A stretch of DNA of 64,000 nt, from contig NZ_CP009920.1 of NCBI RefSeq assembly GCF_000832985.1, positions 3,962,501 through 4,026,500 of the forward strand, written 5' to 3'. A program made the translations under genes and the position numbers. The notes beneath the pieces were generated by a model. It ran no database searches. It was not told where the DNA came from and saw only the letters and a list, made by a program, of their open reading frames with translations. The stretch comes from Priestia megaterium NBRC 15308 = ATCC 14581 (GTDB taxonomy: Bacteria; Bacillota; Bacilli; Bacillales; Bacillaceae_H). Positions 1 to 17,839 of this stretch are shown here, piece after piece (the first letter of the stretch is position 1; each line of letters begins with the position of its first letter).

Positions 1-1
1 A

Positions 2-1934: not shown

Positions 1935-1938
1935 AGTT

Positions 1939-1984
1939 AAGCCCTCACATATTAGACATATCTAAAATGTGAGGGCTTTTTATT
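1939..1984 (+). terminator. Rho-independent terminator after tnpC
   Basis: AGCCCTCACAT pairs with ATGTGAGGGCT around a short loop, followed by a T-run. It ends the tnpB-tnpC transcript. Confidence 0.85.
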
Positions 1985-2017
1985 TTCAACAGTTTTACTT
2001 GTCTAACCTAAATATAA

Positions 2018-2430
2018 TATAACAAACTAGCTTATTTTTACAATGGTTATATTGAAATTGTTGGTTCAGTAGCTACGGGTAAAACGTGGGATAAGACACC
2101 TGTTGGATTTTTAAAGTGGTAAACAAGATTAAAAACCGCCCTTATTATACAGGACATATTCCTAGTGACGACCCTCACAATCCATTAGGAAAACGGTGGT
2201 TACGATTAAATGCAAACGGTACGTATGGTGATACATACGGCATTCATGGTAACAACAATGAAAGCAGCATTGGAAAGTATGTGAGTCAAGGATGCGTAAG
2301 AATGCATAATGCAGATATTGAAAAGCTTTATGATAAAGTTCAAGTAGGAACACCGGTTACGATTACGTATTCCTATAAGAGCTTTGTTGATCTTACGAGC
2401 GTATATGGTTATAAAATGAAAAACAACTAA
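2018..2430 (+). pseudogene. L,D-transpeptidase (YkuD domain), truncated and frameshifted
   Basis: C-terminal half of a YkuD-fold L,D-transpeptidase, which cross-links peptidoglycan 3-3 using a catalytic Cys. The motif HG (YGIHGNNN) followed by SQGCVRMHN carries the active-site His and Cys. The upstream piece (GKTWDKTPVG) is in another frame and stops at 2119-2121. Comparing it with the continuing frame (VNKIKNRPYYTG) puts a one-base frameshift near 2108-2116. There is no start codon or ribosome site at the left end, where the frame opens at 2018 after a stop. The ORF from 2116 would lack the N-terminal half of the domain. I read it as a remnant next to the transposon end. Confidence 0.75.
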
Positions 2431-2475
2431 TACCTGAGCAGCATTCCCAAGTTCTTCTCATGCTCATGTGAGTAA

Positions 2476-2670
2476 GTATCTATTTGGGGTAACTTAACAC
2501 AATGGGAAAATGAAGATTTGTTCGGTACATTAACTGATTGGGAAACATCCGGTAATCCATTCGAGACTGAACAATTAGATTTGTTCGTCTTTGAAGAAGC
2601 AGAATCAGTTGAGTTTCCACCTATAAAACAAGAGGAAGACACAAGATCACTTTTTCTAGTAAGAGCATAG
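2476..2670 (+). pseudogene. Unidentified gene tail
   Basis: A 64-codon open frame with coding-like composition and no start codon or ribosome site. It is acidic and aromatic (WENEDLFGTLTDWE, EQLDLFVFEEAE) and ends at TAG 2668-2670. It directly follows the broken L,D-transpeptidase and looks like the 3' end of a deleted gene. I do not recognise the family. Confidence 0.35.
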
Positions 2671-2671
2671 G

Positions 2672-3160
2672 TTAACCCTCTTGTTTCTTTTCTATAATGT
2701 TAATAATTGCAATTACTAAACGACTAAATAAAGCTCTTACATTAAGGCTAATAAGGCTGTAATACCACTTCCATCCTTTTTGCCACTTAATTAGTTTCGT
2801 ATATTTTTCTGCCCATAACTCAACTAAAAATAGTGAACTGATGGTAAGTACAATCTTATATACAATCTTAAAAGGATTATCATTTTTTGTTAAATGATAA
2901 AGCCATAAAGAAACAGTTGGTAAACATAAGAAATCAAATAAAACATTCGATTTAAACTCTTTAGGTATAAAGCGTATAGGGTATTGAAGTATTTGACGGT
3001 TAACTAGAAACCTGTCAACGATAGCATTTGTATATCCATTCATAAATAAGACCAATAGTGAATCTTTGATAGGGGTTTTCTTTAAAACGAAGGGTAAGCT
3101 ACCTAAAAATATGACGGTTATACACTTTAGAAATCGTCTTTCTAATTTTTTACTTTTCAT
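2672..3160 (-). CDS. CBO0543-like integral membrane protein
   Basis: A 162-aa protein with about four hydrophobic segments (near residues 12-30, 35-50, 72-90 and 100-118) and a basic C-terminus. Spacing and residues such as VDRFLVNRQILQYPIRF and a late LVELWAEKYTKLI fit the CBO0543 family of small Bacillota membrane proteins, whose function is unknown. The ATG at 3160 has AAAGGAG about 8 nt upstream on the minus strand. It is convergent with the remnant ending at 2670. The assignment is by recall of family appearance, so moderate. Confidence 0.6.
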   Translation of the reverse strand: MKSKKLERRFLKCITVIFLGSLPFVLKKTPIKDSLLVLFMNGYTNAIVDRFLVNRQILQYPIRFIPKEFKSNVLFDFLCLPTVSLWLYHLTKNDNPFKIVYKIVLTISSLFLVELWAEKYTKLIKWQKGWKWYYSLISLNVRALFSRLVIAIINIIEKKQEG

Positions 3161-3840
3161 ATAGTTTCATCTCCTTTCTGAGTCGTAAAATTAGTATTAG
3201 CTGTTCTATGATTGACGATGCAACAGTTTTTCCTTTGTTATGAAAATGTAACAGAATAAACCAGATCAATTTTTTCAAATGGTTACATTCGTTCGGTGTC
3301 AAAAAACTGAATATTGTCCATTGAAGAAAAAGCTAATCCCTTCTTTTATGTATTTATTATTTCACACCTTATCTTTTCGTAAATATTTAGAATATGTGAT
3401 AGCGTTTTTACTAACTTAAAACCTCTTTAAGTCATTTAAGCAAATGATAAATTACTTTTGCTATAGATACTTTAGTATTTACATCCATTGTAGAAAAAGA
3501 CTCTATTTGTCGTCACTAAGTGTAAATAGTAAAACTATAATTTTTATAAGTTAGTTTATATATTTACATCTTTACATAAAAGAAATTAATTTTATATTTT
3601 TGTATAAAATTAATTGTTAATCACTATCATTTCTCTTTAATCAACTAGTTATTAATTATGTAGTGATATCTTATTTTATCTAATTGAAGACATATGAAAA
3701 ATATCTAAAAAGAATATAGAAGCGTAATCATGCATATTACATATTATTCTATGTCTCACTTCATCTATCAACCTTGCATAAAAAGAGTGCAAAAGGGAAT
3801 ACTGTTTGCAAAAGAGAAAAGATAAAGGGGTTGACGTTTT
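3161..3840. other. AT-rich intergenic region with a repeated block
   Basis: No gene seen on either strand. Positions 3488-3535 hold a block starting TTGTAGAAAAAGAC that recurs in diverged form at 22871-22918, again several hundred bases before a small + strand gene. Confidence 0.4.
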
Positions 3841-4038
3841 ATGAAAAATAATGCAATTAATGAAACGAATCGAGTTGATTCAAATTTACGCAATGAAATG
3901 TTGGCTGAACGGTTTTTGGATCAAATGATGAATGACTTCAACAGAAGTAAGATTCTCAAGGGAATTGATAAGTCCTTAAAGAATAAAGATAAAGAAGCTT
4001 TTTTACGTTTAACAGAGAAACTTAAATCTATGCCTTGA
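3841..4038 (+). CDS. IDEAL-domain small protein
   Basis: A 65-aa hydrophilic protein whose residues about 17-62 (LRNEMLAERFLDQMM, then KEAFLRLTEKLKSM) match the short helical IDEAL domain found in Bacillus proteins. That domain is thought to mediate protein contacts; no enzymatic residues are seen. AAAGGGG at 3824-3830 sits 10 nt before the ATG. It is a single-gene unit with its own terminator, preceded by 680 bp of AT-rich DNA that probably holds its promoter. Function unknown. Confidence 0.72.
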   Translation: MKNNAINETNRVDSNLRNEMLAERFLDQMMNDFNRSKILKGIDKSLKNKDKEAFLRLTEKLKSMP

Positions 4039-4071
4039 TCAAGGAGATATTATTATAATAGAAGAAACTTA

Positions 4072-4108
4072 TAAAAAAACCTTTACGTGTTTAGTAAAGG
4101 TTTTTTCT
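4072..4108 (+). terminator. Rho-independent terminator
   Basis: AAAACCTTTAC pairs with GTAAAGGTTTT around a 7-nt loop, followed by T residues. It ends the IDEAL-domain gene. Confidence 0.85.
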
Positions 4109-4225
4109 TAAAAAGAATTACTTTACATAATCCTTTTTAAATATTTAACTAAGACTTATTACAAGAAAAACAATTGTAAATCTGAATGCTTTTTTGTATT
4201 TTTTAAAACTTATTTAAGTTGAAAA

Positions 4226-5659
4226 TCATATACGAGATAAAATATCAGAGAATCGTAATACAGCATCCTTTATATGTTTTTTCTCTAATCGAGCATACGT
4301 AAAACGGACATATCCATCTGGAAAGCCATACACACTTCCAGGCATGAATAGAACATTATTTTTTATGCCTTCCTCTACAAGCTTTTCATCACTAATTTTT
4401 TGATTTATTTTGCACCAAATATGAAGTCCGCCATTCGGAGAAATAAAGCTAACTTTCTCTCCCAGAATCTCATGTAACGCAGAAATCATCGTATTTCTTC
4501 TATCCAATAATTCTTGGGTTAGGGCCTTACGGTGAGTTGTATAATCAGCTGATTGTAAAAACTGATTTGCTATTAACTGAGGAAAGATACTTAGTCCAAA
4601 ATCCATTTGTTGGCGGGCATCTGCTAAGCGACTAATAACCGATTGTGGACCAATTAGCCAACCAATTCGGAGACCGGAAGCAACCACTTTAGAAAGAGAA
4701 CCAATATATAATACATTACCATTGTAATCGAAAGATTTAATTGGAGAATGTTTTTCTTCTTTGAAGGAGAGCAAACCAAATGGATCATCTTCTACAATTG
4801 GAATTCCTAACCTTTCGGCAATCTCTATTACTTCTTTTCGACGCGTGTCAGTGAGTACAGTTCCAGTTGGATTCTGATATGTTGGATTTAGAAAAACCAT
4901 ACGAATTTGATGCTTATGATATAAATCCTCTATATCCTTAGGATTTATTCCATTAGGACCAACAGGTAGGCCAAATATACGTAGCCCAGCTGATTGAAAA
5001 AGTGGAAGCGAATAACAGTAAGAAGGAGATTCGATAGCAACAGCGTCACCAGGGCTTAGTAAACACTGAGTGATAAGATACAAAGCCTGTTGAGCACCTG
5101 ATGTGATAAGAATAGAAGAACTAGTGGTCTTGATATTGTAATTAGTCTTAACATAAGCAGATAATGTCTCACGTAGACCTAAGTGCCCTTGTGGATGCTC
5201 ATAACTTAAATCATTTGGAAAGGATTCATCAACTAGAGAAGATTGCAGTAATTGAGAGGGAAATAAATCAGATGATAATTCACCACTTGCTAAATCAAAT
5301 CCATTTTCTAGCTGTTTTGCTGCTTCACGGATACGTTTAATTAAGGGGTATGTAGGTAAAAATGTACTTCCTTCTACATATCTTCTCCAGTTTGTAGATC
5401 CTTTAGATAAAACTCCCCATTTATGGGTGCTGACACGTGTACCACTCCCACGTTTTCTTTCCACTAAACCAACTGCATGCAATTTATCATAGACATGTAC
5501 AATGGTCATGCGGTTAACATTTAATCGTTCAGCTAATTTACGTTCCGACGGTAACAAGGTTCCTAGTGGAAATTCACCATAAGAAATCTTTTGTTCAATG
5601 AAATCAAAGACTTGTTGGTACAAAGGCTTATTTGACTGACGATCTACTTTCCACTCCAT
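4226..5659 (-). CDS. MocR-type regulator (GntR winged helix + aminotransferase fold), copy 1
   Basis: Residues about 1-75 are a GntR winged helix (PLYQQVFDFIEQKI, LPSERKLAERLNVNRMT, ERKRGSGTRV). Residues about 110-477 are a fold-type I aminotransferase domain with the PLP-binding Lys in YIGSLSKVVASG (about K324) and the NPTYQNPTG loop. MocR proteins use PLP bound to an effector amine to switch transcription on or off. It is divergent from the nitrilase gene. The 160-bp gap carries a direct repeat (TTGGATTA at 5708, TTGGATGC at 5732) that matches three other promoters in this region. A close paralog lies at 10331-11770. The effector is unknown. Confidence 0.93.
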   Translation of the reverse strand: MEWKVDRQSNKPLYQQVFDFIEQKISYGEFPLGTLLPSERKLAERLNVNRMTIVHVYDKLHAVGLVERKRGSGTRVSTHKWGVLSKGSTNWRRYVEGSTFLPTYPLIKRIREAAKQLENGFDLASGELSSDLFPSQLLQSSLVDESFPNDLSYEHPQGHLGLRETLSAYVKTNYNIKTTSSSILITSGAQQALYLITQCLLSPGDAVAIESPSYCYSLPLFQSAGLRIFGLPVGPNGINPKDIEDLYHKHQIRMVFLNPTYQNPTGTVLTDTRRKEVIEIAERLGIPIVEDDPFGLLSFKEEKHSPIKSFDYNGNVLYIGSLSKVVASGLRIGWLIGPQSVISRLADARQQMDFGLSIFPQLIANQFLQSADYTTHRKALTQELLDRRNTMISALHEILGEKVSFISPNGGLHIWCKINQKISDEKLVEEGIKNNVLFMPGSVYGFPDGYVRFTYARLEKKHIKDAVLRFSDILSRI

Positions 5660-5707
5660 TTTTATTCACCTCATGTTAATAATTAATTCAGATTATATTT
5701 TTTAAAA

Positions 5708-5767
5708 TTGGATTAGTCAATATATATCCAATTGGATGCATACAAAGAACCTCTTTTTATTTATCAT
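5708..5767 (+). promoter_or_regulatory. Predicted MocR operator/promoter of the nitrilase gene
   Basis: TTGGATTA (5708-5715) and TTGGATGC (5732-5739) are direct repeats 24 bp apart start to start; a TATCAT -10-like box is at 5762. The second half-site also forms the palindrome ATCCAATTGGAT (5726-5737), which could give a minus-strand site for the mocR gene itself. This is the most diverged of the four copies. Confidence 0.6.
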
Positions 5768-5818
5768 CATATTTAAGATTTATATTAAATGGATTTATTA
5801 GAAAGAGGAGGATTTATC

Positions 5819-6775
5819 ATGACTACACAACAACATAATGTGCGAGTAGCTGTTATTCAAGCTGCTTCAGTTATTATGGATCGAGAAGCAAGTACAGAAA
5901 AAGCTATTTCATTAACTCTAGAAGCAGGAGAAAAAGGCGCTAATATCGTGGTATTTCCAGAAGCTTTTATCTCAGCTTATCCAAGGGGACTAGCATTTGG
6001 AGCTACAGTTGGAAGTCGTTCTGCAGAAGGAAGAAAAGATTGGCTGCGCTATTGGGAAAATTCGGTTCCAGTTCCTAGCGAAACTACGGACAAATTAGGA
6101 GAGGCAGCACGTAAAGCTGGTGTTTATCTCGTCATTGGTGTAATTGAAAGAGATAACGAATTTAGTGGTGGGACTCTCTATTGTTCAGTATTATTTTTTG
6201 GGCCAGATGGAACATTACTTGGCAAACATCGTAAATTAAAACCGACAGGTTCAGAAAGATTAATCTGGGGAGAGGGAGATGGAAGTACACTTCCTGTTTT
6301 TGATACACCACATGGCAAGATAGGAGCACTAATTTGTTGGGAGAATTACATGCCACTAGCAAGGGCAGCGATGTATGCAAAAGGAGTTCAAATTTATATT
6401 GCGCCTACAGCTGATTCTCGAGATGTATGGCAATCAACAATTCGTCACATTGCAGTAGAAGGAAGATGTTTTGTTTTATCTTGTAATCAATATGTAAATA
6501 AAGATATGTATCCTACTGATTTAGCATGCTATGATGATTTGGCTTCTTCTCCTGATGAGATGTGTCCAGGAGGAAGTGCTATCATCGGTCCTTTAGGCGA
6601 GTATATCAAGGAACCAGTTTTCGGGAAAGAGAAATTGTTAATTACAGATCTTGATTTACGTGAGATTGCCTACAGTCAGTTTGATTTTGATGTAGTAGGA
6701 CACTACTCAAGACCTGACGTATTTCAACTTGTGGTAAACGAGGAGAAGAAAGAAAATGTAAAGTGGAAAAACTAA
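5819..6775 (+). CDS. Nitrilase
   Basis: Carbon-nitrogen hydrolase that converts an organic nitrile to acid plus ammonia. The Glu-Lys-Cys triad is present: E48 in VVFPEAF, K139 in KHRKLKPT and C173 in LICWENYMPL. The CWENYMPLAR signature and the following IAPTADSRD mark a true nitrilase rather than an amidase. The ATG at 5819 is chosen because AAAGAGGAGG (5802-5811) lies 7 nt upstream; an earlier in-frame ATG at 5789 has no ribosome site. This gives 318 aa, normal for the family. It is the first gene right of the divergent MocR and is followed by a symporter remnant, suggesting an uptake-plus-hydrolysis unit. Substrate is unknown; an aryl-acetonitrile or beta-cyano compound are options. Confidence 0.9.
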   Translation: MTTQQHNVRVAVIQAASVIMDREASTEKAISLTLEAGEKGANIVVFPEAFISAYPRGLAFGATVGSRSAEGRKDWLRYWENSVPVPSETTDKLGEAARKAGVYLVIGVIERDNEFSGGTLYCSVLFFGPDGTLLGKHRKLKPTGSERLIWGEGDGSTLPVFDTPHGKIGALICWENYMPLARAAMYAKGVQIYIAPTADSRDVWQSTIRHIAVEGRCFVLSCNQYVNKDMYPTDLACYDDLASSPDEMCPGGSAIIGPLGEYIKEPVFGKEKLLITDLDLREIAYSQFDFDVVGHYSRPDVFQLVVNEEKKENVKWKN

Positions 6776-6787
6776 AAATATTTTAAA

Positions 6788-7088
6788 ATGCCACTATCCA
6801 AGCATTTTTTATTAAATCAAAGAACAGATTGGGCGGGTATTGGAAATACATTTTCAGTTATTATCTTATTAATTTTCTTCTGGAAGCGTGTTTCAGGTGT
6901 TGGTGTTATCGCAACGATTATTATAGGGTTTGTTAGTGCAATTGGTTGGTCACTTTCACCACTTGAAGCTATGGTATCTGCAAAAGCTGCAACATTCTTT
7001 ATTTGCTTAATTGTTGGTATTGTATTCTCTCTAAATTTATCCTGATACTGAAAAAGAAGTACAGATTAATTCTAAATTAGTAAAATAA
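6788..7088 (+). pseudogene. Sodium:solute symporter (SSS family) C-terminal remnant
   Basis: Three hydrophobic segments with the feature FFWKRVSGVGVIATIIIGF, typical of the last membrane segments of Na+/solute symporters. Full proteins are about 500 aa and only about 100 codons remain. The frame ends at TGA 7043-7045. The neighbouring frame continues with a plausible hydrophilic tail (PDTEKEVQINSKLVK) to TAA 7086-7088, so one base has been lost near 7040. It is 12 nt after the nitrilase with no good ribosome site. It probably once imported the nitrilase substrate. Confidence 0.65.
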
Positions 7089-7097
7089 CAAAAATAG

Positions 7098-7144
7098 GGA
7101 TGTAAGAATGGTGTTAAGTCAACGTTCTTACATCTCTTATTTTT
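7098..7144 (+). terminator. Terminator-like hairpin
   Basis: GATGTAAGAA (7099-7108) pairs with TTCTTACATC (7125-7134), followed by a T-rich stretch. It probably ends the nitrilase transcript. Confidence 0.65.
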
Positions 7145-7360
7145 ATTTCTTTAGAATTAATATTTATCTTTCAGACAGCTTTTCTCACTAACAATAAGGT
7201 AGGGGCTAGTCAAAACAAAGTTGAATTTATATATCAGTTGTTTCGAACTGAATAAACGATGTAGGTTTTCTGTCTTTATCAACGATACTTGAACCAGAGT
7301 TAAAAATTCAATCAGTCAATTTTCCTAGAGGAGTTTACTATTTTTAGAACTCTATTTTAA

Positions 7361-7419
7361 GTGGTTGGTAAAAACATCTCCTTATTGGATGGTCCATTTT
7401 ATTCCTTTTCTTTTATTAT
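7361..7419 (+). promoter_or_regulatory. Predicted MocR operator/promoter of cysI
   Basis: GTGGTTGG (7361-7368) and TTGGATGG (7385-7392), 24 bp apart, with TATTAT (7414-7419) as the -10. No TTGACA-like -35 is present; the second half-site abuts that position, which suits activator-dependent transcription. The leader to the cysI ATG is about 80 nt. Confidence 0.65.
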
Positions 7420-7504
7420 TTTAAGAGAAGGGGATATTGAAACTGAACAAAGAAAACGTTACTACGTGATTGACAGGCTACTTTAATGGAAGGGAGTTTT
7501 CAAT

Positions 7505-9217
7505 ATGGTAAATCAAATATTAAAAGTGCCAGATGGCCCACCAAGTGATGTAGAACGTATAAAAAAAGAGAGTAACTATTTGCGGGGATCTCTAGCACAA
7601 TCAATGTTAGAACCAATCAGCGCAGGAATTTCAGACGATGACAATCGTTTGATGAAATTTCATGGAAGCTATCTACAGGATGACAGGGATTTACGTAATG
7701 AGCGTCAAAAACAGAAACTTGAACCAGCGTATCAGTTTATGGTTCGTATCCGAAGACCAGGCGGCGTGGCGACACCAAAACAATGGTTGGTCTTAGACGA
7801 ACTTGCACAAAAGTATGGTAATGGAACCCTCAAATTATCAACACGCCAAGCATTTCAAATGCATGGGATTCTAAAATGGAATATGAAAAAAACGATTCAA
7901 GAAATTGATTCAGTTCTTATGGATACTATTGCAGCCTGTGGTGATGTAAATAGAAATGTAATGTGTGATCCAAATCCTTATCAATCTGAAATTCATGCTG
8001 AAGTTTATGAATGGGCTAAGCAATTAAGTGATAAACTACTACCTCGTACTAGAGCGTACCATGAAATTTGGCTTGATGAGGAAAAAGTTGCTGCTACACC
8101 AGATTTAGATGAAATAGAACCAATGTATGGTCCACTTTATTTACCAAGAAAATTCAAGATTGGTATTGCAGTCCCACCATCTAATGACATTGATGTTTTT
8201 TCACAAGATATTGGGCTTATTGCCATCGTTGAAAACGAGAAACTAGTAGGCTTTAATATAGCTATTGGTGGTGGAATGGGAATGTCGCATGGTGACACCA
8301 AAACATACCCTCAACTTGCAAAATTAATAGGTTTTTGTAAGCCAGAACAAATCTATGATGTAGCAGAGAAAGTCATTACAATTCAGCGTGACTATGGTAA
8401 TCGTTCTGAACGAAAAAATGCCCGATTCAAATATACAGTCGACCGCCTCGGATTAGAAACCGTTAAGAATGAGTTAGAAAATCGTCTTGGCTGGTCATTA
8501 GATAAGGTAAGGCCGTATAAATTTGATAGTAACGGTGATCGTTATGGATGGACAAAAGGTATACAAGAAAAATGGAATTTCACTCTGTTTGTTGAGGGTG
8601 GTCGTATTGGGGATTTTGAAGACTATAAACTAATGACTGGTTTGCGGGAAATTGCTAAGGTCCATACTGGGGATTTTCGCTTAACTGCTAATCAAAACCT
8701 AGTCATTGCTAATGTATCAAACAAGAAAGAAATTAACGAGTTGATTGAACAATATGGTTTAACAGACGGTAAGTATTTATCAGCACTTCGTCGTAGTTCC
8801 TTAGCATGCGTAGCACTCCCAACCTGTGGCTTAGCAATGGCCGAAGCCGAACGCTATTTACCAACTCTTCTCGATAAAATCGAGGTTATTGTTGATGAAA
8901 ATGGTTTGCGCAATGAAGAAATTACTATTCGTATGACTGGGTGTCCGAATGGATGTGCCCGTCATGCATTAGGGGAAATAGGGTTTATCGGTAAAGCACC
9001 AGGCAAATACAATATGTATCTCGGTGCTGCCTTTGACGGTAGTCGTCTAAGTAAAATCTATCGTGAAAATATTGGGGAAGAAGAGATTTTAAACGAATTA
9101 CGTGTACTTCTTTCTCATTACGCAAAGGAACGTAATGAGGGAGAGCACTTTGGGGACTTTGTTATTCGTGCAGGCATTGTTAAGGCAACTACAGATGGTA
9201 CTAATTTTCATATGTAA
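7505..9217 (+). CDS. cysI: Assimilatory sulfite reductase hemoprotein (beta subunit)
   Basis: Siroheme and 4Fe-4S enzyme that reduces sulfite to sulfide using six electrons from a flavoprotein partner. The cluster ligands are C435 and C441 (CVALPTC) and C480 and C484 (CPNGC), almost the same numbering as E. coli CysI, which also has 570 residues. Earlier landmarks are [12 protein letters not shown] and [23 protein letters not shown] lies before the ATG. The usual partner CysJ is absent; instead hemD, needed for siroheme, follows. It sits alone between a MocR-type operator and a terminator. A nitrite reductase role is possible but the length and N-terminus fit sulfite reductase better. Confidence 0.93.
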
Positions 9218-9225
9218 AATAAAGA

Positions 9226-9257
9226 AGAGACAGGATTGGAATCCTGCCTCTTTTTTA
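9226..9257 (+). terminator. Rho-independent terminator after cysI
   Basis: GAGACAGGATT pairs with AATCCTGCCTC (one mismatch), followed by six T. Confidence 0.82.
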
Positions 9258-9323
9258 CAATTCCACCTTATTTAAGAGGGATTTGGTATGTTCGTGAAAG
9301 TACTAACTAATGATATATATTAA

Positions 9324-9382
9324 GTGGATGGCTTATTAAAAGTAAAATTGGATGGTTATTTTTCTTATAAAGTCTTTAATAT
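9324..9382 (+). promoter_or_regulatory. Predicted MocR operator/promoter of hemD-mocR
   Basis: GTGGATGG (9324-9331) and TTGGATGG (9348-9355), 24 bp apart, with TAATAT (9377-9382) as the -10, exactly where it lies at cysI. If functional, the second MocR would control its own operon. Confidence 0.65.
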
Positions 9383-9471
9383 AAAAATAAAGGGCTAAAT
9401 AATTTTAGAGAATAAGAAAATATAAAGTAAATGTTAAAGGCAGAGAATTTAAAATGAGATGAGGAAAACAG

Positions 9472-10278
9472 GTGGTAAAAAAATTATCAGCTAAACGCGT
9501 AGTTATTGGAGCTTCGCGTAAAACAGAAGAAATAAGTATGTTAATTGAAAAGCAAGGTGGAACGCCTATTATAAGGTCTCTTCAAGGAACTGTATTTTTA
9601 GCAAAAAAGGAATTAGAAGTAGAATTACAGCAGGTTATAAGTGCAGGAGTAGATTGGGCCATTTTCACGACAGGAATTGGGGTTGAGACACTTTTAACTA
9701 CAACTGAAGAGTTGGGTATTCAAACTGAGTTTCTTAGAATGATTCGTCATGCTAATGTAGCAACGAGGGGCTACAAAACTTTATCTACCCTAAAAAAAAT
9801 GGGTATTAACCCAGCTGCAACAGATGAGGATGGTACCACTCAAAGCTTACTACACTCTTTAGAGGAGTTCGATTTTAAAGGAAAAAAAGTCATGGTACAA
9901 CTTCACGGTGAGAAGGCCCCTAGGTTAATTAAGTTTCTTGAAGATAAGGGAGCACATGTATTTAAAGTTTTACCATATCAACATATTGCTCCTAATTCAG
10001 AAATTGTAAAGAAACTATGTAATGAATTAATCAACAATGAAATAGATGCAGTTTGCTTTACCACAGCTATTCAAGTTCGATCTCTTTTTGATTTTGCTAA
10101 AGAACATGATTATCACCAAGAAATTCAGCAAGCATTTAAGGAACAAGTTGTAGCTGTTGCAGTTGGTAAAGTAACAGCTGAGGCATTAAGGGAAGAAGGG
10201 ATTCAAAGAATAATTGTTCCAGAAAAGGAAAGAATGGGTGCTATGATTATAGAACTGTCTCGGTTTTATGCAAACTAA
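9472..10278 (+). CDS. hemD: Uroporphyrinogen-III synthase
   Basis: Closes and rearranges hydroxymethylbilane to uroporphyrinogen III, the branch point to heme and siroheme. The protein (268 aa) has the two-lobed HemD layout: RVVIGASRKTEEIS at the N-terminus, WAIFTTGIGVETLL near residue 65, DEDGTTQSLL near 125, KVMVQLHGEKAPRL near 145 and DAVCFTTAIQVRSLF near 195. The start is GTG 9472 with GAGGAAA about 6 nt upstream; no in-frame ATG fits. It lies 52 nt ahead of the second MocR gene and probably shares its transcript. The placement beside the siroheme enzyme CysI suggests a dedicated siroheme supply; a normal chromosomal hemD is expected elsewhere. Confidence 0.87.
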   Translation: MVKKLSAKRVVIGASRKTEEISMLIEKQGGTPIIRSLQGTVFLAKKELEVELQQVISAGVDWAIFTTGIGVETLLTTTEELGIQTEFLRMIRHANVATRGYKTLSTLKKMGINPAATDEDGTTQSLLHSLEEFDFKGKKVMVQLHGEKAPRLIKFLEDKGAHVFKVLPYQHIAPNSEIVKKLCNELINNEIDAVCFTTAIQVRSLFDFAKEHDYHQEIQQAFKEQVVAVAVGKVTAEALREEGIQRIIVPEKERMGAMIIELSRFYAN

Positions 10279-10330
10279 TTATTATACAGTAGGGATTTAA
10301 TGGAGAACTAAAAGTAAGGATGAAGTAAAA

Positions 10331-11770
10331 ATGGATTGGAAACCAGATCGTTCAGATAAAAAACCTATTTATAAACAAATTGCTCATTATATAGAACATG
10401 GAATTGCTACAGGCATCTTCTCTCCAGATAGTACGTTACCATCAGAGAGAGCACTTGCGAGTGAATTAGGAGTAAATAGAAGTACTATTATATCAGCGTA
10501 CGAATACTTACACTCTTTAGGCATTGTTGAGCGAAAAAAAGGTAGTGGAACACGTATAAGTACAAATATTTGGGGGATTTCTCATAAACGAATTCCAAAT
10601 TGGGGAAGATATGTAGAAGATGGCTCATTTTTACCTAATCTCCCGTTAGTTCAAAAAATTCGTACAGAAACACAAAAAGATAATTTCATTAATTTGGCAA
10701 GTGGTGAGTTAGCACCTCAGTTATTTCCAACTATTCAATTTCGTGAAATTCTTACTCGACAACCATTCATGGAGAATTTAGGATATGACCACCCTCAGGG
10801 GAATGAACTTTTAAGGGAAACTATTTCTCAACATGTAAAACAGTATAAAAATATAGATACAAATTCTTCTTCTATTCTTATTACTTCGGGTGCACAACAA
10901 GCACTTCACCTTATTGTTCAGTGCTTATTAAAGCCTGGGGATGCTGTGGCAATTGAGGATCCGTCTTATTGCTTTTCTCTTCCTATTTTTCAATCCGCAG
11001 GGCTTCGAACTTTTTTATTACCTGTAGATAAGGACGGGGTGAATCCTAACGATCTTATATCATTGCATAAAAAGCATCGCATTCGAATGATTTTCTTAAA
11101 TCCTGATTATCAAAACCCAACAGGGACGGTTCTTTCTACACCTCGTCGTAAAAAAATATTAGAACTGTCATCTGAATTAGGTATTCCTATTGTTGAGGAT
11201 GATCCTTATACGTTAACCACTTTTGGTGGGGAAGTGAATCAAACATTGAAGTCAATGGACTCTAATGGAAATGTTCTTTATATTAGTTCTTTATCCAAAA
11301 TTGTTGCCTCAGGGCTAAGAATTGGTTGGATTATAGGTCCTCAGTCAGTGATTCAAAGACTCGCTGATGCTAAGCAACAAGTTGATTTTGGACACAGTGT
11401 TTTTCCACAATGGGTTGCAAACCAATTTTTAAGTTCATCATATTTTTCCGAGCATATTCTTACTATTAGAAAAAACCTTAAACTTCAAAGAGATGAACTA
11501 GCTAATAGTCTTCATGAACTTTTAAGTGATGAAATGGAATTTTATATGCCAAATGGTGGGATTCATATGTGGTGTAAAATAAATAAGCCCATCCATGAAG
11601 GGCGTCTGCTCGAAGAATCGCTAAAGAAAGGCATAGCTTTTGTTCCAGGGACTATTTTTGGTTCCCAAAAGGGATATGTACGCTTCACTTTTGGACGAGA
11701 AAAAGTTGAATCAATTAGAGAAGGTATTCTTAGGTTTGCAGATGCTTTAAAAAGCGTAACTAACACATAA
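10331..11770 (+). CDS. MocR-type regulator (GntR winged helix + aminotransferase fold), copy 2
   Basis: A 479-aa paralog of the regulator at 4226-5659, alike through both domains (for example PNWGRYVEDGSFLP against TNWRRYVEGSTFLP). The winged helix is residues 1-75 (LPSERALASELGVNRST, ERKKGSGTRIS). The aminotransferase domain has the PLP Lys in YISSLSKIVASG (about K323). It is translated after hemD and probably co-transcribed. The 24-bp-spaced TTGGATGG repeats before cysI, hemD and hisC are the natural candidates for its binding sites. Which of the two paralogs binds which promoter cannot be told from sequence. Confidence 0.93.
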   Translation: MDWKPDRSDKKPIYKQIAHYIEHGIATGIFSPDSTLPSERALASELGVNRSTIISAYEYLHSLGIVERKKGSGTRISTNIWGISHKRIPNWGRYVEDGSFLPNLPLVQKIRTETQKDNFINLASGELAPQLFPTIQFREILTRQPFMENLGYDHPQGNELLRETISQHVKQYKNIDTNSSSILITSGAQQALHLIVQCLLKPGDAVAIEDPSYCFSLPIFQSAGLRTFLLPVDKDGVNPNDLISLHKKHRIRMIFLNPDYQNPTGTVLSTPRRKKILELSSELGIPIVEDDPYTLTTFGGEVNQTLKSMDSNGNVLYISSLSKIVASGLRIGWIIGPQSVIQRLADAKQQVDFGHSVFPQWVANQFLSSSYFSEHILTIRKNLKLQRDELANSLHELLSDEMEFYMPNGGIHMWCKINKPIHEGRLLEESLKKGIAFVPGTIFGSQKGYVRFTFGREKVESIREGILRFADALKSVTNT

Positions 11771-11879
11771 ATTTTCTTAAGCATGTTACTTTTTAGATGA
11801 ACACTGGCTTGACCAATAATATTTTTATGTAAAGTATTAATCAAGCCAATAAATACGCCACGTAGAAATTATATAAAGA

Positions 11880-11920
11880 TAAAATGAGTCATGAGAAATT
11901 CATGGGTCATTTTTTATTCT
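11880..11920 (+). terminator. Terminator-like hairpin after mocR copy 2
   Basis: AAAATGAxTCATGA pairs with TTCATGxxTCATTTT around GAAA, followed by T residues. A further inverted pair, TGGCTTGA and TCAAGCCA, lies just upstream (about 11803-11848). Confidence 0.65.
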
Positions 11921-11955
11921 TGACATTGTTAATTTTGAGAAAGGATCTTTAGAAA

Positions 11956-12014
11956 GTGGTTGGTTAAATTAACTCATAATTGGATGGTTCTTTTTCTTTT
12001 ATATTCTTTATTAT
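11956..12014 (+). promoter_or_regulatory. Predicted MocR operator/promoter of the hisC operon
   Basis: GTGGTTGG (11956-11963) and TTGGATGG (11980-11987), 24 bp apart, with TATTAT (12009-12014) as the -10. The bases between half-site and -10 (TTCTTTTTCTTTTATATTCTT) resemble those at the hemD site. Confidence 0.63.
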
Positions 12015-12337
12015 AAAAAGAAAGGCCATAAATGTTTATTTACTATCGCTCCTCCCATAAGTAATTTACTGAGATTTAGCTAAATTGAAATAAAGGTAAC
12101 TATAGGTGATATCCAGTGATAGCAAATCCTGTTTATTTAGCTTATATAACTCTAGCGAGAGCTTTATTTAATCTGCGCTCGAACTTATGTTAAGTATGTT
12201 CCAAAGTATATCTTTCAAAATCATGTGAATTACTTCACATTGAAATTAGTTTAAAGATAATTTTATTCAAAAACGAAGTGAATTGTCTCTTATTTATGAA
12301 TTTAAAATGAGTAAATTTTCTATAAGGAGCTTTAAAT
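12015..12337 (+). other. Long untranslated leader before hisC
   Basis: About 320 nt lie between the predicted -10 and the hisC ATG, with no ORF that looks real. It contains the inverted repeat ATGTGAA-TTAC-TTCACAT near 12221-12238, a possible operator. A second promoter inside the leader is possible. No known riboswitch consensus recognised. Confidence 0.4.
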
Positions 12338-13450
12338 ATGCCTATTCATGAAACTATCCAAGCACGTAAAGTATTAGAACACATTCAGCCATATTTGCCA
12401 GGCAAACCTATCTGGGAAGTACAAGAAGAGCTAGGACTAGACCAAGTAATTAAAGTAGCCTCTAATGAAAATCCTTTAGGACCGTCTCCTAAAGCACTTG
12501 AAGCTATTTTAGTAAGCCTAACAGGAATTAACCGTTACCCAGACGCGAATGCTACAGATCTTAAGAGGCAAATTGCTGTTCGTTCTAATCTATCACCAGA
12601 GCAAATCATTGTTACAAATGGTGCTGATGAGTTAATTACCTTGATTTCTGAAACGTTCTTGAACTTAAATGATGAAATTATTGTTCCTTCTCCTTCTTTT
12701 AGTGAGTATGACTTCGGTGCCTACTTAATGGGAGCTAAGGTCGTGGGTGTCCCTTTTGGGGAAGACTACCAATATAATGTGGAAGCCATCCTTTCAGCTG
12801 TGACACAACGAACAAAAATTGTTTACCTTTGTTCTCCAAATAATCCAACAGGTACTTATCTATCAAAAAAGCATTTACACAAATTATTAGATTCTTTACC
12901 AAAGCACGTACTAGTTGTATTTGATGGAGCATATAGTCACTACGCGACAGCTGATGATTACACAGTTGGAATTGAATATGTTAAATTAGGCTATCCAATT
13001 ATTGTATTACAAACTTTTTCTAAGATATATGGTCTTGCAGGCGTTCGGATTGGTTTTGGACTTGCGTCAGAAGCTATTGTCCAAAATATTCTAAAAGTAA
13101 AAGAACCATTCAACGTTAATACTTTAGCTCAAGTAGCTGCTACAGCAGCTATAAATGACGATAAGCATGTTGAAGCCTCTCAAGAAGCCAACACACTAGG
13201 ACGCTTACAATTGTATGAAGGCTTTTCTAAACTTGGATTATCTTATACAGAGAGTATGAGTAATTTCGTACTTGTTAGGGTTGGACCAAAAGCAAAAGAC
13301 GTTTATGAAGAACTTCTTTCTAAAGGAATTATCGTTCGGTACGGAGACACATGGGGACTGGAGGAATATATCAGAATTTCAGTAGGTAACCCAAAAGAAA
13401 ATGATACTTTACTTAAAGCTATGGCTTCTGTTTTACAAGAGACGTGTTAA
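12338..13450 (+). CDS. hisC: Histidinol-phosphate aminotransferase-like enzyme
   Basis: PLP-dependent aminotransferase of the HisC group, which in histidine synthesis moves an amino group to imidazole-acetol phosphate. Landmarks are KVASNENPLGPSP near 40, TNGADELI near 93, CSPNNPTGT near 165 and the PLP Lys in LQTFSKIYGLAG (K229). The length of 370 aa is normal. AAGGAG is 8 nt before the ATG. It stands outside any his operon and heads a unit with a second aminotransferase, a broken hemQ and a decarboxylase. It may therefore act on another substrate such as an aromatic or cyano amino acid; the symbol marks the family, not proven function. Confidence 0.85.
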   Translation: MPIHETIQARKVLEHIQPYLPGKPIWEVQEELGLDQVIKVASNENPLGPSPKALEAILVSLTGINRYPDANATDLKRQIAVRSNLSPEQIIVTNGADELITLISETFLNLNDEIIVPSPSFSEYDFGAYLMGAKVVGVPFGEDYQYNVEAILSAVTQRTKIVYLCSPNNPTGTYLSKKHLHKLLDSLPKHVLVVFDGAYSHYATADDYTVGIEYVKLGYPIIVLQTFSKIYGLAGVRIGFGLASEAIVQNILKVKEPFNVNTLAQVAATAAINDDKHVEASQEANTLGRLQLYEGFSKLGLSYTESMSNFVLVRVGPKAKDVYEELLSKGIIVRYGDTWGLEEYIRISVGNPKENDTLLKAMASVLQETC

Positions 13451-13481
13451 CAATAATTTTATTTGTAAAGGGGAAGTTTTC

Positions 13482-14783
13482 ATGCACGATATTGCTAAAA
13501 ACCTAAACAACGTAATAAAAAATGAAAATCCTTTTATTTATGACATGCTGTCAGACTTAGGTAAAAACTTATATAACCAGAAAGGTATTTTGAGTCAAAG
13601 TGCTGAAGCAAGCAAGCGAGCTTATAGATTTAATGCCACGATTGGGATTGCAACTGAAGAACATGAACCTATGCATTTTCAACATATACAAGATCATTTT
13701 ATAGGATATGCTCCTGAAGATATCTATCCATATGCTCCCCCAGCTGGAAAGCAAGTATTGAGAGAGTTATGGAATGAAAAATTACTATTGGATAATCCAT
13801 CTTTACATCATCAAAATTTTGGACTTCCAATTGTCACAAACGCTTTGACTCATGGCCTTAGTATTGCGGCGGATTTATTTGCAAATCCAGAGGATTCTGT
13901 AATCGTTCCTGATAAGTATTGGGGGAATTATCAATCAATCTTTCATGTTCGAAGAGGGGCACACTTATTAACTTATAAATTATTTAACAAAGATAGAAAA
14001 TTTAATACAGCCTCCTTTAGAGAAGCTTTATTTAATCAAAAATCAAAAGGAAAAGCTATTGTCCTTTTAAATTTCCCTAACAACCCGACAGGTTATACAC
14101 CGGGTGCCAAGGAAGCTGAAGAAATCATTGCTGTTCTAAATGAAACAGCTGAAGCAGGGATTAGTATTGTTGCTATTTTAGATGATGCCTACTTCGGATT
14201 ATTTTATGAAAACTCTATTAAAGAATCTTTATTTGGTCAATTGGCTGGTCTACATCAAAAGATTTTGCCTATCAAGGTAGATGGAGCAACAAAAGAAAAC
14301 TATGTCTGGGGACTAAGAGTTGGTTTCATTACGTATGCCTCCCCTAGTTCTGTCATTCTAGATGCATTGGAGCAAAAAACAGTAGGTCTTATACGGGGAA
14401 CTATTTCAAGCAGTTCTCATTTATCCCAAACTGTTATCTTACAGTCTCTGCAGTCACATGAATTTGCAAAAGAGAAACAGCAGAAATTTCAATTGATGGA
14501 ACGAAGAGCCAAAAAAGTAAAAGAAGTATTGAATCAAAAAAAATATAATGATTACTGGTCTTATTATCCGTTTAATTCTGGTTACTTCATGTGTTTACAA
14601 CTTAAAAATATAAATGCAGAGACGCTTAGGATGCACTTATTAAATCAATATGGGGTAGGAACGGTTGCAATTAATCCCACAGATTTAAGAGTCGCTTTCT
14701 CTTGTGTAGAAGAACAAGAAATAGAGGAACTATTTAACCTTATATATAAAGGCGCTGAAGACATAGTTCATTCAAATCATTGA
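13482..14783 (+). CDS. Class I/II aminotransferase
   Basis: A 433-aa fold-type I PLP enzyme. Visible features are the substrate loop YAPPAGKQVLRELW near 84, LNFPNNPTGYTPG near 196, LDDAYFGLFY near 233 and the PLP Lys in VDGATKENYVWGLRVGF (K271). The ATG at 13482 follows AAAGGGGAAG by 8 nt; upstream in-frame codons overlap hisC and lack a ribosome site. The 31-nt gap to hisC indicates one operon. Substrate is not identifiable from the sequence. Related enzymes are annotated only as pyridoxal-phosphate-dependent aminotransferases. Confidence 0.82.
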   Translation: MHDIAKNLNNVIKNENPFIYDMLSDLGKNLYNQKGILSQSAEASKRAYRFNATIGIATEEHEPMHFQHIQDHFIGYAPEDIYPYAPPAGKQVLRELWNEKLLLDNPSLHHQNFGLPIVTNALTHGLSIAADLFANPEDSVIVPDKYWGNYQSIFHVRRGAHLLTYKLFNKDRKFNTASFREALFNQKSKGKAIVLLNFPNNPTGYTPGAKEAEEIIAVLNETAEAGISIVAILDDAYFGLFYENSIKESLFGQLAGLHQKILPIKVDGATKENYVWGLRVGFITYASPSSVILDALEQKTVGLIRGTISSSSHLSQTVILQSLQSHEFAKEKQQKFQLMERRAKKVKEVLNQKKYNDYWSYYPFNSGYFMCLQLKNINAETLRMHLLNQYGVGTVAINPTDLRVAFSCVEEQEIEELFNLIYKGAEDIVHSNH

Positions 14784-14812
14784 ATGGAATTCAGCCTAGG
14801 AGTGAAAGAACA

Positions 14813-15557
14813 ATGAATCAAGCAACTCAAACTTTAGACGGGTGGTACTGTTTACAAAATTTTTATAAGTTAAATTAGAAAACATAGAAACTGCTATCTA
14901 GTGATGAACGTCAAGTGGCTATTGACGAATTTATAAAACTGAAAGAGCAATGGAATATTACTCAAAACAAAAAAGAAGGCAGCTATGGTATATTTCAGAT
15001 TACTGGCCATAAAGCAGATCTTATGCTGATGATTCTCCGACCAACTATGGAAGAACTTCAAGATATCGAAACCTCGTTTAATAAGACTAAGTTAGCTGAA
15101 CACATGATACAAACTACCTCGTATGGTATCTGTAGTAGAACTAAGTAATTACTTAAGTAAAGGTGAAAACCCATATGAAAAACCTGAAATTCGTTCCCGG
15201 TTATATCCTCTTTTACCTGACGCGAAATATATATGTTTTTATCCAATGAATAAACGCCGTCAAGGGAACGATAATTGGTATTCACTACCTATAGATGAAC
15301 GTAATCAGATGATGCGAAGTCATAGTATGATTGGACGAAGTTACGCAGGAAAAGTCAAACAAATTATATTAGGTTCGATTGGTTTAGATGATTTTGAATG
15401 GGGAGTGGCGTTATTTGCTGATGATGTTCTTCAGTTCAAAAAATTAATATATGAAATGCGGTTTGATGAAGTAAGTGCCCGTTACGGTGAATTTGGTTCT
15501 TTTTTTGTGGGACAAACACTGTCTAAAGAAAAAATTACACGTCTATTGCACATATAA
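14813..15557 (+). pseudogene. hemQ: Coproheme decarboxylase HemQ, inactivated
   Basis: HemQ (chlorite-dismutase fold) makes heme b from coproheme in Bacillota. Recognised from the start MNQATQTLDGWYCL, the middle HKADLMLMILRPTMEEL, and the C-terminal part [16 protein letters not shown] and [13 protein letters not shown] with [16 protein letters not shown]. Two amber codons at 14876-14878 and 14885-14887 occupy positions where the family has Trp. One extra base near 15126 shifts the frame between the N- and C-terminal parts. The ribosome site AGGAG (14798-14802) is still present. It lies between an aminotransferase and speA in the same direction. A working hemQ must exist elsewhere in this cell. 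Confidence 0.9.
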
Positions 15558-15597
15558 TTAAAAACAACATTAGATAAACTAAGAGGTGTATTAAAGA

Positions 15598-17073
15598 TTG
15601 TATTCTCAATTTCAAACTCCATTATTTACAGCACTACTAGAACATGCAAACAAAAATCCAATCCAATTCCATATTCCAGGTCATAAAAAAGGAAATGGAA
15701 TGGATCCTGAATTCAAGGGATTTATCGGTGAAAATGCACTTTCTATCGATTTAATTAATATTGCTCCGTTGGATGATTTACATCAGCCAAGGGGAGTTAT
15801 TAAACAAGCACAGGATTTGGCGGCTGAAGCGTTTGGTGCGGATCATACATTCTTTTCTATCCAAGGTACGAGTGGTGTGATTATGGCAATGATTATGTCT
15901 GTATGTGGGCCTGGCGATAAAATTATTGTACCTCGTAACGTACACAAATCCATCATGAGTGGAATTGTACTTTCAGGTGCTACACCCATATTTATTCACC
16001 CTCAGGTAGATCCTGACCTTGGTATTTCACATGGGGTCCCGCCTGAATCTATCGAAGAAGCATTAAAACAACATCCAGATGCCAAAGCTGTACTTGTTAT
16101 TAATCCTACGTACTTTGGAATTGCGGGGGATTTGAGAAAAATTGTAGAAATTACTCATTCCTATAATATTCCTGTACTTGTGGACGAAGCGCATGGTGTG
16201 CATATTCATTTTCATGATGAATTGCCTCTTTCTGCAATGCAAGCAGGAGCTGATATGGCAGCTACCAGCGTGCATAAGCTAGGAGGGTCAATGACACAAA
16301 GTTCTATACTAAATGTACAGGGGACACTTGTTTCGCCAGAACGTGTACAAGCTATTTTAAGTATGTTGACAACAACTTCTACTTCTTATATATTACTTGC
16401 TTCACTTGATGCAGCAAGAAAATCCTTAGCAACAGAAGGACAAGCATTATTAGAAGAAACTATCCGTATGGCTGAAAAAATTCGTGGTCTAATTAATAGA
16501 ATTGAGCACCTTTATTGCGCAGGAAGTGAAATTTTAGGTACATCTGCAACCTTTGCCATAGATCAAACAAAACTTGTTATTTCAGTGAAAGAATTGGGTG
16601 TTACAGGGTATGCTGTAGAGAAATGGCTTCGTGAGAAGTTTAATATTGAGGTGGAACTATCTGATCTTTATAACATTCTTTGCATTATCACACCGGGTGA
16701 TAATGAAGAGGATGTCTTAAGACTTGTCCATGCTTTAAAAGAACTGTCGAGAGAGTTTAAGTATCAATCAGATACTAATATAAATACTGATGTTCTATTG
16801 CCAGAAATTCCATTACTTGCTTTAACACCTAGGGATGCTTTCTATGCAGAAACAGAAGTGGTTCCCTTCGAAGAATCAATTGGAAGAATTATTGCTGAAT
16901 TTGTGATGGTTTATCCACCAGGTATACCGATTTTTATCCCTGGTGAAATCATTACAGAAGAGAATGTACTATATACTAAAAAAAATATAGAAGCTGGTCT
17001 TCCTGTACAAGGTGCTGAAGACCTTAACTTGAAGTTCATACGTGTTTTAAAAGAGCATAGGGATCTTAAATAA
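15598..17073 (+). CDS. speA: Arginine/lysine/ornithine decarboxylase
   Basis: Fold-type I PLP decarboxylase of the Orn/Lys/Arg group; the Bacillus SpeA enzyme makes agmatine from arginine for polyamine synthesis. Landmarks are HIPGHKKGNGM at 25, the PLP Lys in SVHKLGGSMTQSS (K227), DEAHGVHIHF at 196 and the C-terminal YPPGIPIFIPGE. The length of 491 aa matches SpeA. The start is TTG 15598 with AGAGGTG about 9 nt upstream. It follows hemQ by 40 nt and is probably the last gene of the hisC unit. Lysine or ornithine cannot be excluded as substrate. Confidence 0.87.
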   Translation: MYSQFQTPLFTALLEHANKNPIQFHIPGHKKGNGMDPEFKGFIGENALSIDLINIAPLDDLHQPRGVIKQAQDLAAEAFGADHTFFSIQGTSGVIMAMIMSVCGPGDKIIVPRNVHKSIMSGIVLSGATPIFIHPQVDPDLGISHGVPPESIEEALKQHPDAKAVLVINPTYFGIAGDLRKIVEITHSYNIPVLVDEAHGVHIHFHDELPLSAMQAGADMAATSVHKLGGSMTQSSILNVQGTLVSPERVQAILSMLTTTSTSYILLASLDAARKSLATEGQALLEETIRMAEKIRGLINRIEHLYCAGSEILGTSATFAIDQTKLVISVKELGVTGYAVEKWLREKFNIEVELSDLYNILCIITPGDNEEDVLRLVHALKELSREFKYQSDTNINTDVLLPEIPLLALTPRDAFYAETEVVPFEESIGRIIAEFVMVYPPGIPIFIPGEIITEENVLYTKKNIEAGLPVQGAEDLNLKFIRVLKEHRDLK

Positions 17074-17180
17074 TATTAACGTTAACCTTTTTAGATTCTA
17101 TAGAGTTTACAACACTAAATGAGAAACTTACCAGAAAATAAGTCATGTAATAACATTTAGAATGTAATTAATGGAGATGA

Positions 17181-17618
17181 ATGAAGATGACATGGATTGT
17201 AGTACTTTCAATAATTGTTGCAAGTGCTCTAAAATTATTAATAACAACTATGCCAACCCCAGTAGTTAAGTGGTTTCTCCGGAAGTTTGAACTACACTCT
17301 AAACTTGACTCCTCCCATGTGAGTATTAAAAAGGACGGGAAAATATTAGAGGGTGAAGAGAAAGAGAAATTTATTGCTAATTTCAATGAAGCAACTTTTC
17401 TAGAGAAATATTATGTGCATTCAGGTAACGAACAATACTTTTTACATCCTGAAAACGCTAAATCCCCTTATGTTATTGATGCGAAAAGAGGGAAAAACAA
17501 TGTTAAATTGTCTGTCTATAGTTATAAAGACCGTGTAGACGTAGTTAAGCAATATAAAAAGAAAATAGAAGCGTATAGCTTGCTTTCTGATCCTCTTCAG
17601 CAAGAATCCGTGTCTTAA
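17181..17618 (+). CDS. YfmQ-like protein of unknown function
   Basis: A 145-aa protein with one N-terminal membrane segment (WIVVLSIIVASALKLLI) and a soluble, charged remainder (EEKEKFIANFNEATFLEKYY, then SVYSYKDRVDVVKQYKKK). The layout matches the Bacillus YfmQ family as I remember it; function unknown. GGAG at 17173-17176 suits either ATG 17181 or ATG 17187, so the start is uncertain by two codons. It is a stand-alone gene 107 nt after speA. Confidence 0.65.
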   Translation: MKMTWIVVLSIIVASALKLLITTMPTPVVKWFLRKFELHSKLDSSHVSIKKDGKILEGEEKEKFIANFNEATFLEKYYVHSGNEQYFLHPENAKSPYVIDAKRGKNNVKLSVYSYKDRVDVVKQYKKKIEAYSLLSDPLQQESVS

Positions 17619-17693
17619 CTTAAAAAGATCGCCTTTGATTTAGTTAGGCATCAATCTAATTCTTATTCTATTTGCAACAACCTCACAACTAGC

Positions 17694-17839
17694 AGAAAAA
17701 ACTACCCCTCCCCTTGAACTGCACCTCCAATTATTAGTTTTTGTCTAACAATTGGGGTGCAGTTCAGGAGCAGTAGGTTTTTCTATTTGTTGACTATAGT
17801 TGACTATATATGATATACACTCTTAGTTAACATAATGTA
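17694..17839. repeat. Nested hairpin plus TATATGATAT repeat (copy A)
   Basis: TGAACTGCACC... (17715) pairs with ...GGTGCAGTTCA (to 17766) around a 7-nt loop, a stem of about 22 bp. AGAAAAAACTAC and GTAGGTTTTTCT extend it outward. TATATGATAT at 17807-17816 and TTAGTTAACATAATGT follow; the same tail recurs near 18632 and 19884. The inner hairpin looks like an insertion into the loop of a simpler hairpin such as that at 19838. It may double as terminator of the gene at 17181. Confidence 0.6.

Follow-up and report, generated by a model that had tools for sequence, protein, structure and literature searches.

MocR-type regulators commonly read direct repeats with or without an additional inverted box, the repeated boxes carrying a conserved TGG or TGT (PMC5320631), and MocR-linked cyanide clusters are known from Pseudomonas. 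The cyanide-resistance cio cluster of Pseudomonas pseudoalcaligenes CECT5344 holds mocR, cysI, oxidase genes, serC, hisC, argD, dapA, metF, cysM, maeB and nit4, and a mocR mutant is reported, from the authors' own unpublished data, to express cio constitutively (PMC8567248, PMC11049912); the authors of PMC11049912 found no cluster homologous to it when they looked in databases. In P. aeruginosa, the MocR-type protein MpaR is described as switching on, in response to cyanide, a gene for an oxidase subunit together with neighbors that include nirA (PMC10790758, PMC12688703), whose product is a cyanide-tolerant siroheme reductase (PMC12688703), with cyanide-modified pyridoxal 5'-phosphate (PLP) proposed by the authors as the signal (PMC10790758). 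For Bacillus subtilis, a 2019 survey lists GabR as characterized and six other MocRs as of unknown function (PMC6522883). Here we describe a window of 64,000 nucleotides from the soil bacterium Priestia megaterium NBRC 15308 = ATCC 14581 (contig NZ_CP009920.1, positions 3,962,501 to 4,026,500), in which four neighboring operons are preceded by the same likely MocR control site (Table 1) and may form a cyanide-defense program of Gram-positive bacteria.

The likeness to the CECT5344 cio cluster lies in a mocR gene accompanied by an extra siroheme reductase (CysI), an extra HisC, other PLP enzymes and a Nit4-type nitrilase, with an additional oxidase near the MocR gene in some relatives. Whereas cio is one long cluster, here, in the Bacillales, several separate promoters share one operator, HemD and YfmQ are added, and a related locus (G258) has DeoC where cio has DapA. 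Both DapA and DeoC are Schiff-base aldolases. The MpaR regulon (PA4129-PA4134) likewise combines a MocR-type regulator, a siroheme reductase target and an autoregulated operon, and its promoter element lies some 60 bp ahead of the start site, to be compared with a predicted -66 to -59 for the first box here; its oxidase gene encodes a cbb3 subunit rather than a quinol oxidase, and its cyanide response has been shown, whereas ours is read from the genes. The GabR and PdxR operators of Bacilli are also MocR direct repeats, some with an extra inverted box like that of our operator 1 (PMC5320631), though they serve other targets; this comparison of boxes is by description rather than letter by letter. 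In a scan of MocR2 only, the protein fell below the NCBIfam cut-offs for both PdxR (NF052282, 317.5 bits against 320) and GabR (NF052285, 129.2 bits against 600). Among the literature matches listed, no Bacillales MocR cyanide regulon was recognizable by title or abstract start, although the supplements of PMC5320631 may list some of the operators; the motif letters together with MocR returned only unrelated papers among the matches listed, and MocR with nitrilase, sulfite reductase, HemD, LrgA or YfmQ returned only the Pseudomonas papers. The literature searched yielded no account of such a set, defined by its operator, in Bacillales.

Each of the four operators consists of two half-sites whose starts are exactly 24 bp apart, followed by a -10 hexamer at a nearly constant place; the positions, spacing and hexamer offsets in the initial annotation of this DNA all hold, as does its remark that no consensus -35 is present, the hexamers 17 nt upstream of the four -10s (CATACA, GGTCCA, GGTTAT and GGTTCT) being unlike TTGACA. 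Operator 1 additionally carries an inverted box that produces the palindrome ATCCAATTGGAT, and its form is that of the MocR1|nitrilase divergons in four genomes (G001, G014 and G015 included); by this likeness it is a MocR1-type operator. In form, operators 2-4 match those of MocR2 relatives and look like MocR2-type operators. Because the form of operator 1 differs from that of the other three, a single regulon and two overlapping ones are equally likely, and cross-binding of MocR1 and MocR2 between the predicted operators is likely. The annotation had proposed one co-regulated set: MocR-type operators are indeed predicted at all four sites, and it is the singleness of the set that the two operator forms call into question.

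The repeat is rare. When the pattern suggested by the initial annotation, KTGGWTKR-N16-TTGGATGS, was searched in the 5.75-Mb genome of the same strain, there were six exact matches and none for the reversed pattern that served as control, so the many equally good random matches that would have spoken against the annotation did not appear. Each of the six has a MocR gene no more than about 1.75 kb away: four are the operators of the window, and the other two stand in a MocR|LysE divergon and in the region holding the promoter of mocR3, a third MocR gene. With the spacer freed to 6-36, 13 matches were found (reversed control, 6), six at the 24-bp spacing and seven at other lengths, while allowing two mismatches gave 84 matches vs 62 in the control, which is noise and uninformative.

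Among related genomes, the exact pattern is present in 6 of 10 from the genus, 10 of 16 from the family and 92 of 397 from the order, the last yielding 118 matches vs 21 for the reversed control (hand count from a table). All 118 were inspected in their loci or in the window: eight sites had 1.5-kb flanks, two from the P. megaterium genome were judged on MocR-centered loci with L005 and L006 as a check, four belonged to the window itself, and the others had flanks of at most 4 kb, as far as the contig permitted. Outside open reading frames (ORFs) of more than 115 amino acids (aa) there were 56 matches, 48 of them with a MocR gene in the locus; within such ORFs there were 62, of which only six had one. 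Five of these six read as upstream frame extensions of the MocR or target gene, and the sixth (L150) was dropped as only a 21.5% aminotransferase-fold match, leaving 53 MocR-linked sites. In-ORF matches lacking a MocR gene are mostly chance hits, and these 56 of 62 are what an explanation of the whole set by chance resemblance could appeal to. Against it stand the empty control in the strain's own genome, the MocR genes adjoining both matches outside the window and the conserved -10, and we give it practically no weight, the conservation tests below having already refuted it. The four-operator observation is real and well beyond chance.

Beside MocR genes of relatives, the operator is conserved together with its promoter. 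At 48 of 49 distinct MocR-linked sites, box 2 is followed by a TA...T hexamer beginning 21 or 22 nt past it, other offsets being taken at most eight times each. A weight matrix was built from 42 distinct exact-pattern MocR-linked sites, and is not independent on those sites; among the best 30 stored MocR2-like loci, it found a site of at least 15 bits in 29, comprising 21 exact sites that had fed the matrix and eight independent ones. In a wider, hand-chosen set of 51 MocR loci that overlaps the set of 30, sites of at least 17 bits were present in 49 (25 exact). Because the search pattern prescribes TGG, the 49 exact sites are uninformative on it; it is kept in both boxes at eight MocR2-like loci with non-exact sites. 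A background of 446,137 bases, taken from 50 loci or stretches that were chosen for neither motif nor MocR, contained sites of at least 12 bits in only four of the 50, all of them loci chosen for cysI or hemD: L203 (from genome G067) before cysI, L183 before yfmQ, and L190 and L192 (Paenibacillus) before hemD. Three of the four also hold a MocR gene, divergent to hemD in L192, and the hemD site of L190 is without one. Looking for the repeat beside related clusters, as the annotation had recommended, thus recovered it at MocR genes in many genomes, with the -10 likewise placed.

Both MocR1 and MocR2 have the architecture of the subfamily, a GntR winged helix-turn-helix (wHTH) fused to an aminotransferase class I/II domain, and a PLP lysine is predicted in each, the SK of MocR2 aligning with the SK of solved aminotransferases. 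By our reading of the search list, the P. megaterium genome encodes 11 fused MocRs. The five most like MocR1 all have both the 24-bp repeat in their locus, weak (15 bits) in L012, and the recognition helix VNR(S/M)T, while the other six have different helices, with an operator site in none of the six and VNR(S/M)T in none. More distant MocRs linked to OppA-like genes, only 25-38% identical to MocR1, carry NRST in six of six cases and have the site beside the OppA-like gene. With all six matches of the strain's own genome near MocR genes, repeats beside MocRs in relatives and the -10 conserved, the annotation's choice of MocR as reader of the repeats is well supported, and the operator and its assignment to MocR are almost certainly correct.

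The repeats could instead be operators of a non-MocR regulator that merely travels with these genes, and some sites indeed have no MocR in the locus: eight of the 56 intergenic matches, the hemD site of L190, and a seventh likely operator in the P. megaterium genome (L256:3769-3800, at C6:5118268; one mismatch, 31 bits, -10 at +22) that precedes an EamA transporter gene with no MocR adjoining, the gene beside it being presumably LysR-like. Two VNRST MocRs (L314 and L336), conversely, have no site of at least 8 bits in 19.5 kb, and the helix alone is therefore no predictor of the operator. Four of the eight MocR-less intergenic sites nevertheless precede target families that are linked to MocR elsewhere (LysE, YfmQ twice and LrgA), and in the P. 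megaterium genome the repeat tracks the MocR recognition helix, making a non-MocR regulator very improbable.

Table 1. Positions of regulators, operators, -10 hexamers and genes in the window
Feature	Position	Strand	Description
MocR1	4229..5659	-	GntR wHTH + aminotransferase-like domain (PF00392 + PF00155); helix VNRMTIV; PLP lysine K324 in SLSK (predicted)
Operator 1	5708..5739	+	TTGGATTA-N16-TTGGATGC; before nitrilase gene, divergent to mocR1; MocR1 type (predicted)
-10 of operator 1	5762..5767	+	TATCAT; 22-nt gap from box 2, i.e. begins at 23rd base
Nitrilase, NIT4-type	5819..6775	+	PF00795; best solved relative NIT4 6i00
Operator 2	7361..7392	+	GTGGTTGG-N16-TTGGATGG; before cysI; counterpart before cysI in G067
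-10 of operator 2	7414..7419	+	TATTAT; begins at 22nd base past box 2
CysI	7505..9217	+	Siroheme sulfite reductase subunit, second copy; TIGR02041, 920.6 bits (cut-off 756.55)
Operator 3	9324..9355	+	GTGGATGG-N16-TTGGATGG; before hemD-mocR2
-10 of operator 3	9377..9382	+	TAATAT; begins at 22nd base past box 2
HemD	9472..10278	+	Uroporphyrinogen-III synthase; PF02602; NF004584, 413 bits (cut-off 233)
MocR2	10331..11770	+	PF00392 + PF00155; recognition helix VNRSTII; PLP lysine K323 in SLSK (predicted)
Operator 4	11956..11987	+	GTGGTTGG-N16-TTGGATGG; before hisC; similar site before yfmQ in G001
-10 of operator 4	12009..12014	+	TATTAT; begins at 22nd base past box 2
HisC	12338..13450	+	Second copy; TIGR01141, 344 bits (cut-off 276.55)
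AT2	13482..14783	+	Aminotransferase of PRK08637 type; NF006388, 654 bits (cut-off 301)
HemQ/chlorite-dismutase-like gene	14814..15557	+	Interrupted, in hisC operon; PF06778, only model positions 69-188 of 189
ODC	15598..17073	+	Orn/Lys/Arg decarboxylase family, a PLP enzyme family; PF01276
YfmQ family protein	17181..17618	+	PF10787; frequent target of the same operator in relatives

As for what the set does, our best reading is a MocR-activated cyanide-protection regulon, which we consider moderately probable and whose cyanide part comes from gene content: the gene set resembles the Pseudomonas MocR-linked clusters, and B. megaterium assimilates cyanide via 3-cyanoalanine (beta-cyanoalanine), as stated in PMC8567248 with reference to Castric and Strobel 1969. 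The species is also reported to produce cyanide (PMC7283520), and the genome itself fits P. megaterium, a 4,335-base stretch of its contig C7 being 100% identical to plasmid NZ_CP035095.1. Compared with solved structures, the nitrilase scores 347 bits with plant NIT4 (6i00) and 181 with the next (3wuy), so that NIT4 is its closest solved relative; by this measure it is NIT4-like, of the beta-cyanoalanine nitrilase type. The other CysI copy (C6:23287-25002) is 83% identical to that of the window and adjoins a 607-aa ORF that we take to be CysJ; no cysJ-like ORF adjoins the cysI of the window. There are two further HemD-like places in the genome (48% and 27% identical), and the other HisC copy (C6:1139511-1140587) is 39% identical.

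In the mechanism that we envisage, MocR1 would read operator 1 and MocR2 the other three, with cross-talk probable, and the two direct boxes 24 bp apart would be contacted by a MocR dimer in head-to-tail arrangement. With the -10 hexamers set at -12 to -7, box 2 would span roughly -42 to -35 and box 1 roughly -66 to -59, which would let bound MocR substitute for the absent -35 and recruit RNA polymerase in a class-II-like manner; because there is no -35 box and the distance to the -10 is fixed, MocR most likely activates through contact with RNA polymerase. It possibly also represses mocR1 at the divergent operator 1. Reaction of the MocR-bound PLP with cyanide or a nitrile would provide the signal. 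Among the products, the NIT4-type nitrilase would hydrolyze beta-cyanoalanine, the extra CysI (siroheme) and extra HisC (PLP) would be spare, cyanide-tolerant enzymes, the extra HemD would supply tetrapyrrole precursor, and AT2 and ODC would be two more PLP-family enzymes of the protection set. A broader proposal, which we consider slightly less probable than not, is that the VNR(S/M)T clade of MocRs in Bacillales senses cyanide or nitrile via PLP and activates extra copies of cyanide-exposed enzymes together with a NIT4 nitrilase from a 24-bp direct-repeat operator at about -66 to -35.

Nitrilase, CysI, HemD, HisC, aminotransferase, decarboxylase and YfmQ genes recur with MocR in relatives, in varying subsets. 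Genome G067 has [site]MocR2-[site]CysI-YfmQ-nitrilase, and locus L183, from a Bacillus metagenome-assembled genome, has CtaG-Sco1-nitrilase-HemD-MocR2-[site]YfmQ. In G258, QoxABC is divergent from [site]MocR2-[site]HisC-AT2-ODC-DeoC-nitrilase-CtaG, which repeats the HisC-AT2-ODC order of the window. In G307, [site]HisC-nitrilase is accompanied by a nearby Sco1 gene, and in G145 a nitrilase, ODC, a HisC-like stretch and QoxABC are followed by MocR2 4.7 kb further on. QoxABC lies within 5 kb of MocR at eight loci of seven other genomes in three genera (by database labels), and the QoxB near MocR is an additional copy in all seven. At six of these eight loci the site lies between qoxA and mocR and is directed at mocR; at the other two it is elsewhere or points away.

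Such gene content could also suit a response to another respiratory or siroheme poison, namely sulfite, nitrite or nitric oxide (NO): CysI and HemD belong to siroheme, relatives carry the additional quinol oxidase with CtaG/Sco1, and nitrite and cyanide protection are coupled in the MpaR cluster (PMC12688703). The NIT4-type nitrilase and the extra PLP-family enzymes fit cyanide better, however, and no dedicated nitrite or NO gene was recognized among the annotated cluster genes, leaving these poisons improbable as the signal.

A stronger competitor, though one we still regard as unlikely, accepts the MocR operators but takes the signal to be an amino acid or PLP-related metabolite and the cyanide-like genes to be general PLP and sulfur metabolism. 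MocR regulons often contain PLP enzymes and transporters (PMC5320631), LysE, EamA and YfmQ are among the targets here, and MocR2 stands just below the PdxR model cut-off. Left unexplained by a metabolite signal are the NIT4-type nitrilase, the extra CysI and HemD, and the additional quinol oxidase with CtaG/Sco1 at the same MocR clade; moreover, no pdx gene was recognized among the annotated targets, which are a part of all targets.

Several observations nonetheless weigh against cyanide protection by MocR activation. The same operator family also precedes LysE, EamA, LrgAB, YfmQ and OppA-like genes, and because these targets lack an evident cyanide role, the family is wider than cyanide. Where cio has CioAB, relatives here have an aa3-type quinol oxidase, and no terminal oxidase was recognized in the cluster (window 1-20000); in addition, because no site at the Qox-linked loci points to qox (0 of 8), MocR control of qox is not established. 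There is no operator site at 10 of 13 hemD loci or at 28 of 29 further cysI loci, many of these probably being housekeeping copies, and of the 21 genomes with nitrilase relatives, 11 show neither a site nor a MocR nearby (five viewed with about 8 kb per side where the contig allowed, six with 1.5 kb). As to mechanism, the reports cited above describe a repressor role for the MocR of CECT5344, in contrast to the activation proposed here, the MpaR motif is a palindromic ATCTGAT rather than a 24-bp direct repeat, and a box spacing of 24 bp does not correspond to an integral number of helical turns. The two site-less VNRST MocRs belong with these points.

Should the cyanide-protection regulon hold, Gram-positive bacteria would have their own counterpart of the MocR and MpaR cyanide responses of Pseudomonas, PLP-bearing cyanide sensors would span two phyla, and the beta-cyanoalanine route described for B. 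megaterium in 1969 would gain candidate genes, with a nitrilase gene named. The DNA code itself, comprising the helix VNR(S/M)T, a 24-bp spacing of the boxes and a fixed -10 distance, is testable and is tied to many Bacillales MocRs.

Further sites and genes were noted around these loci. OppA-like lipoprotein genes (recognized by eye) with the same operator are divergent to the distant MocRs of L107-L111 and L115, and in L322, L324, L329 and L330 the operator lies upstream of lrgAB with a MocR2-like gene downstream. A weaker 24-bp repeat, GTGGTTGG-N16-CTGGTTGA, is found between a MocR gene and an EamA-like gene (L258:4410-4441, minus strand). We also considered a pyruvate or overflow reading, drawn from a pyruvate-oxidase-like gene upstream of mocR3 and the LrgAB targets, and set it aside as weaker in that it leaves the nitrilase, CysI and HemD unexplained. 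An RNA leader before hisC was considered as well, with no Rfam match up to E 0.5 (window 4000-20000). The HemQ-like gene of the hisC operon is open from 15123 to 15557, with a stop near 14877 (read by eye). Upstream of the cluster, window positions 23-1934 hold a phage-type integrase gene and a DUF6262 gene, and among the nine further genomes of the genus that were sampled, a nitrilase relative at E<=1e-90 is confined to G001; because of the integrase and this restricted occurrence, the four-operator cluster may be an acquired island.

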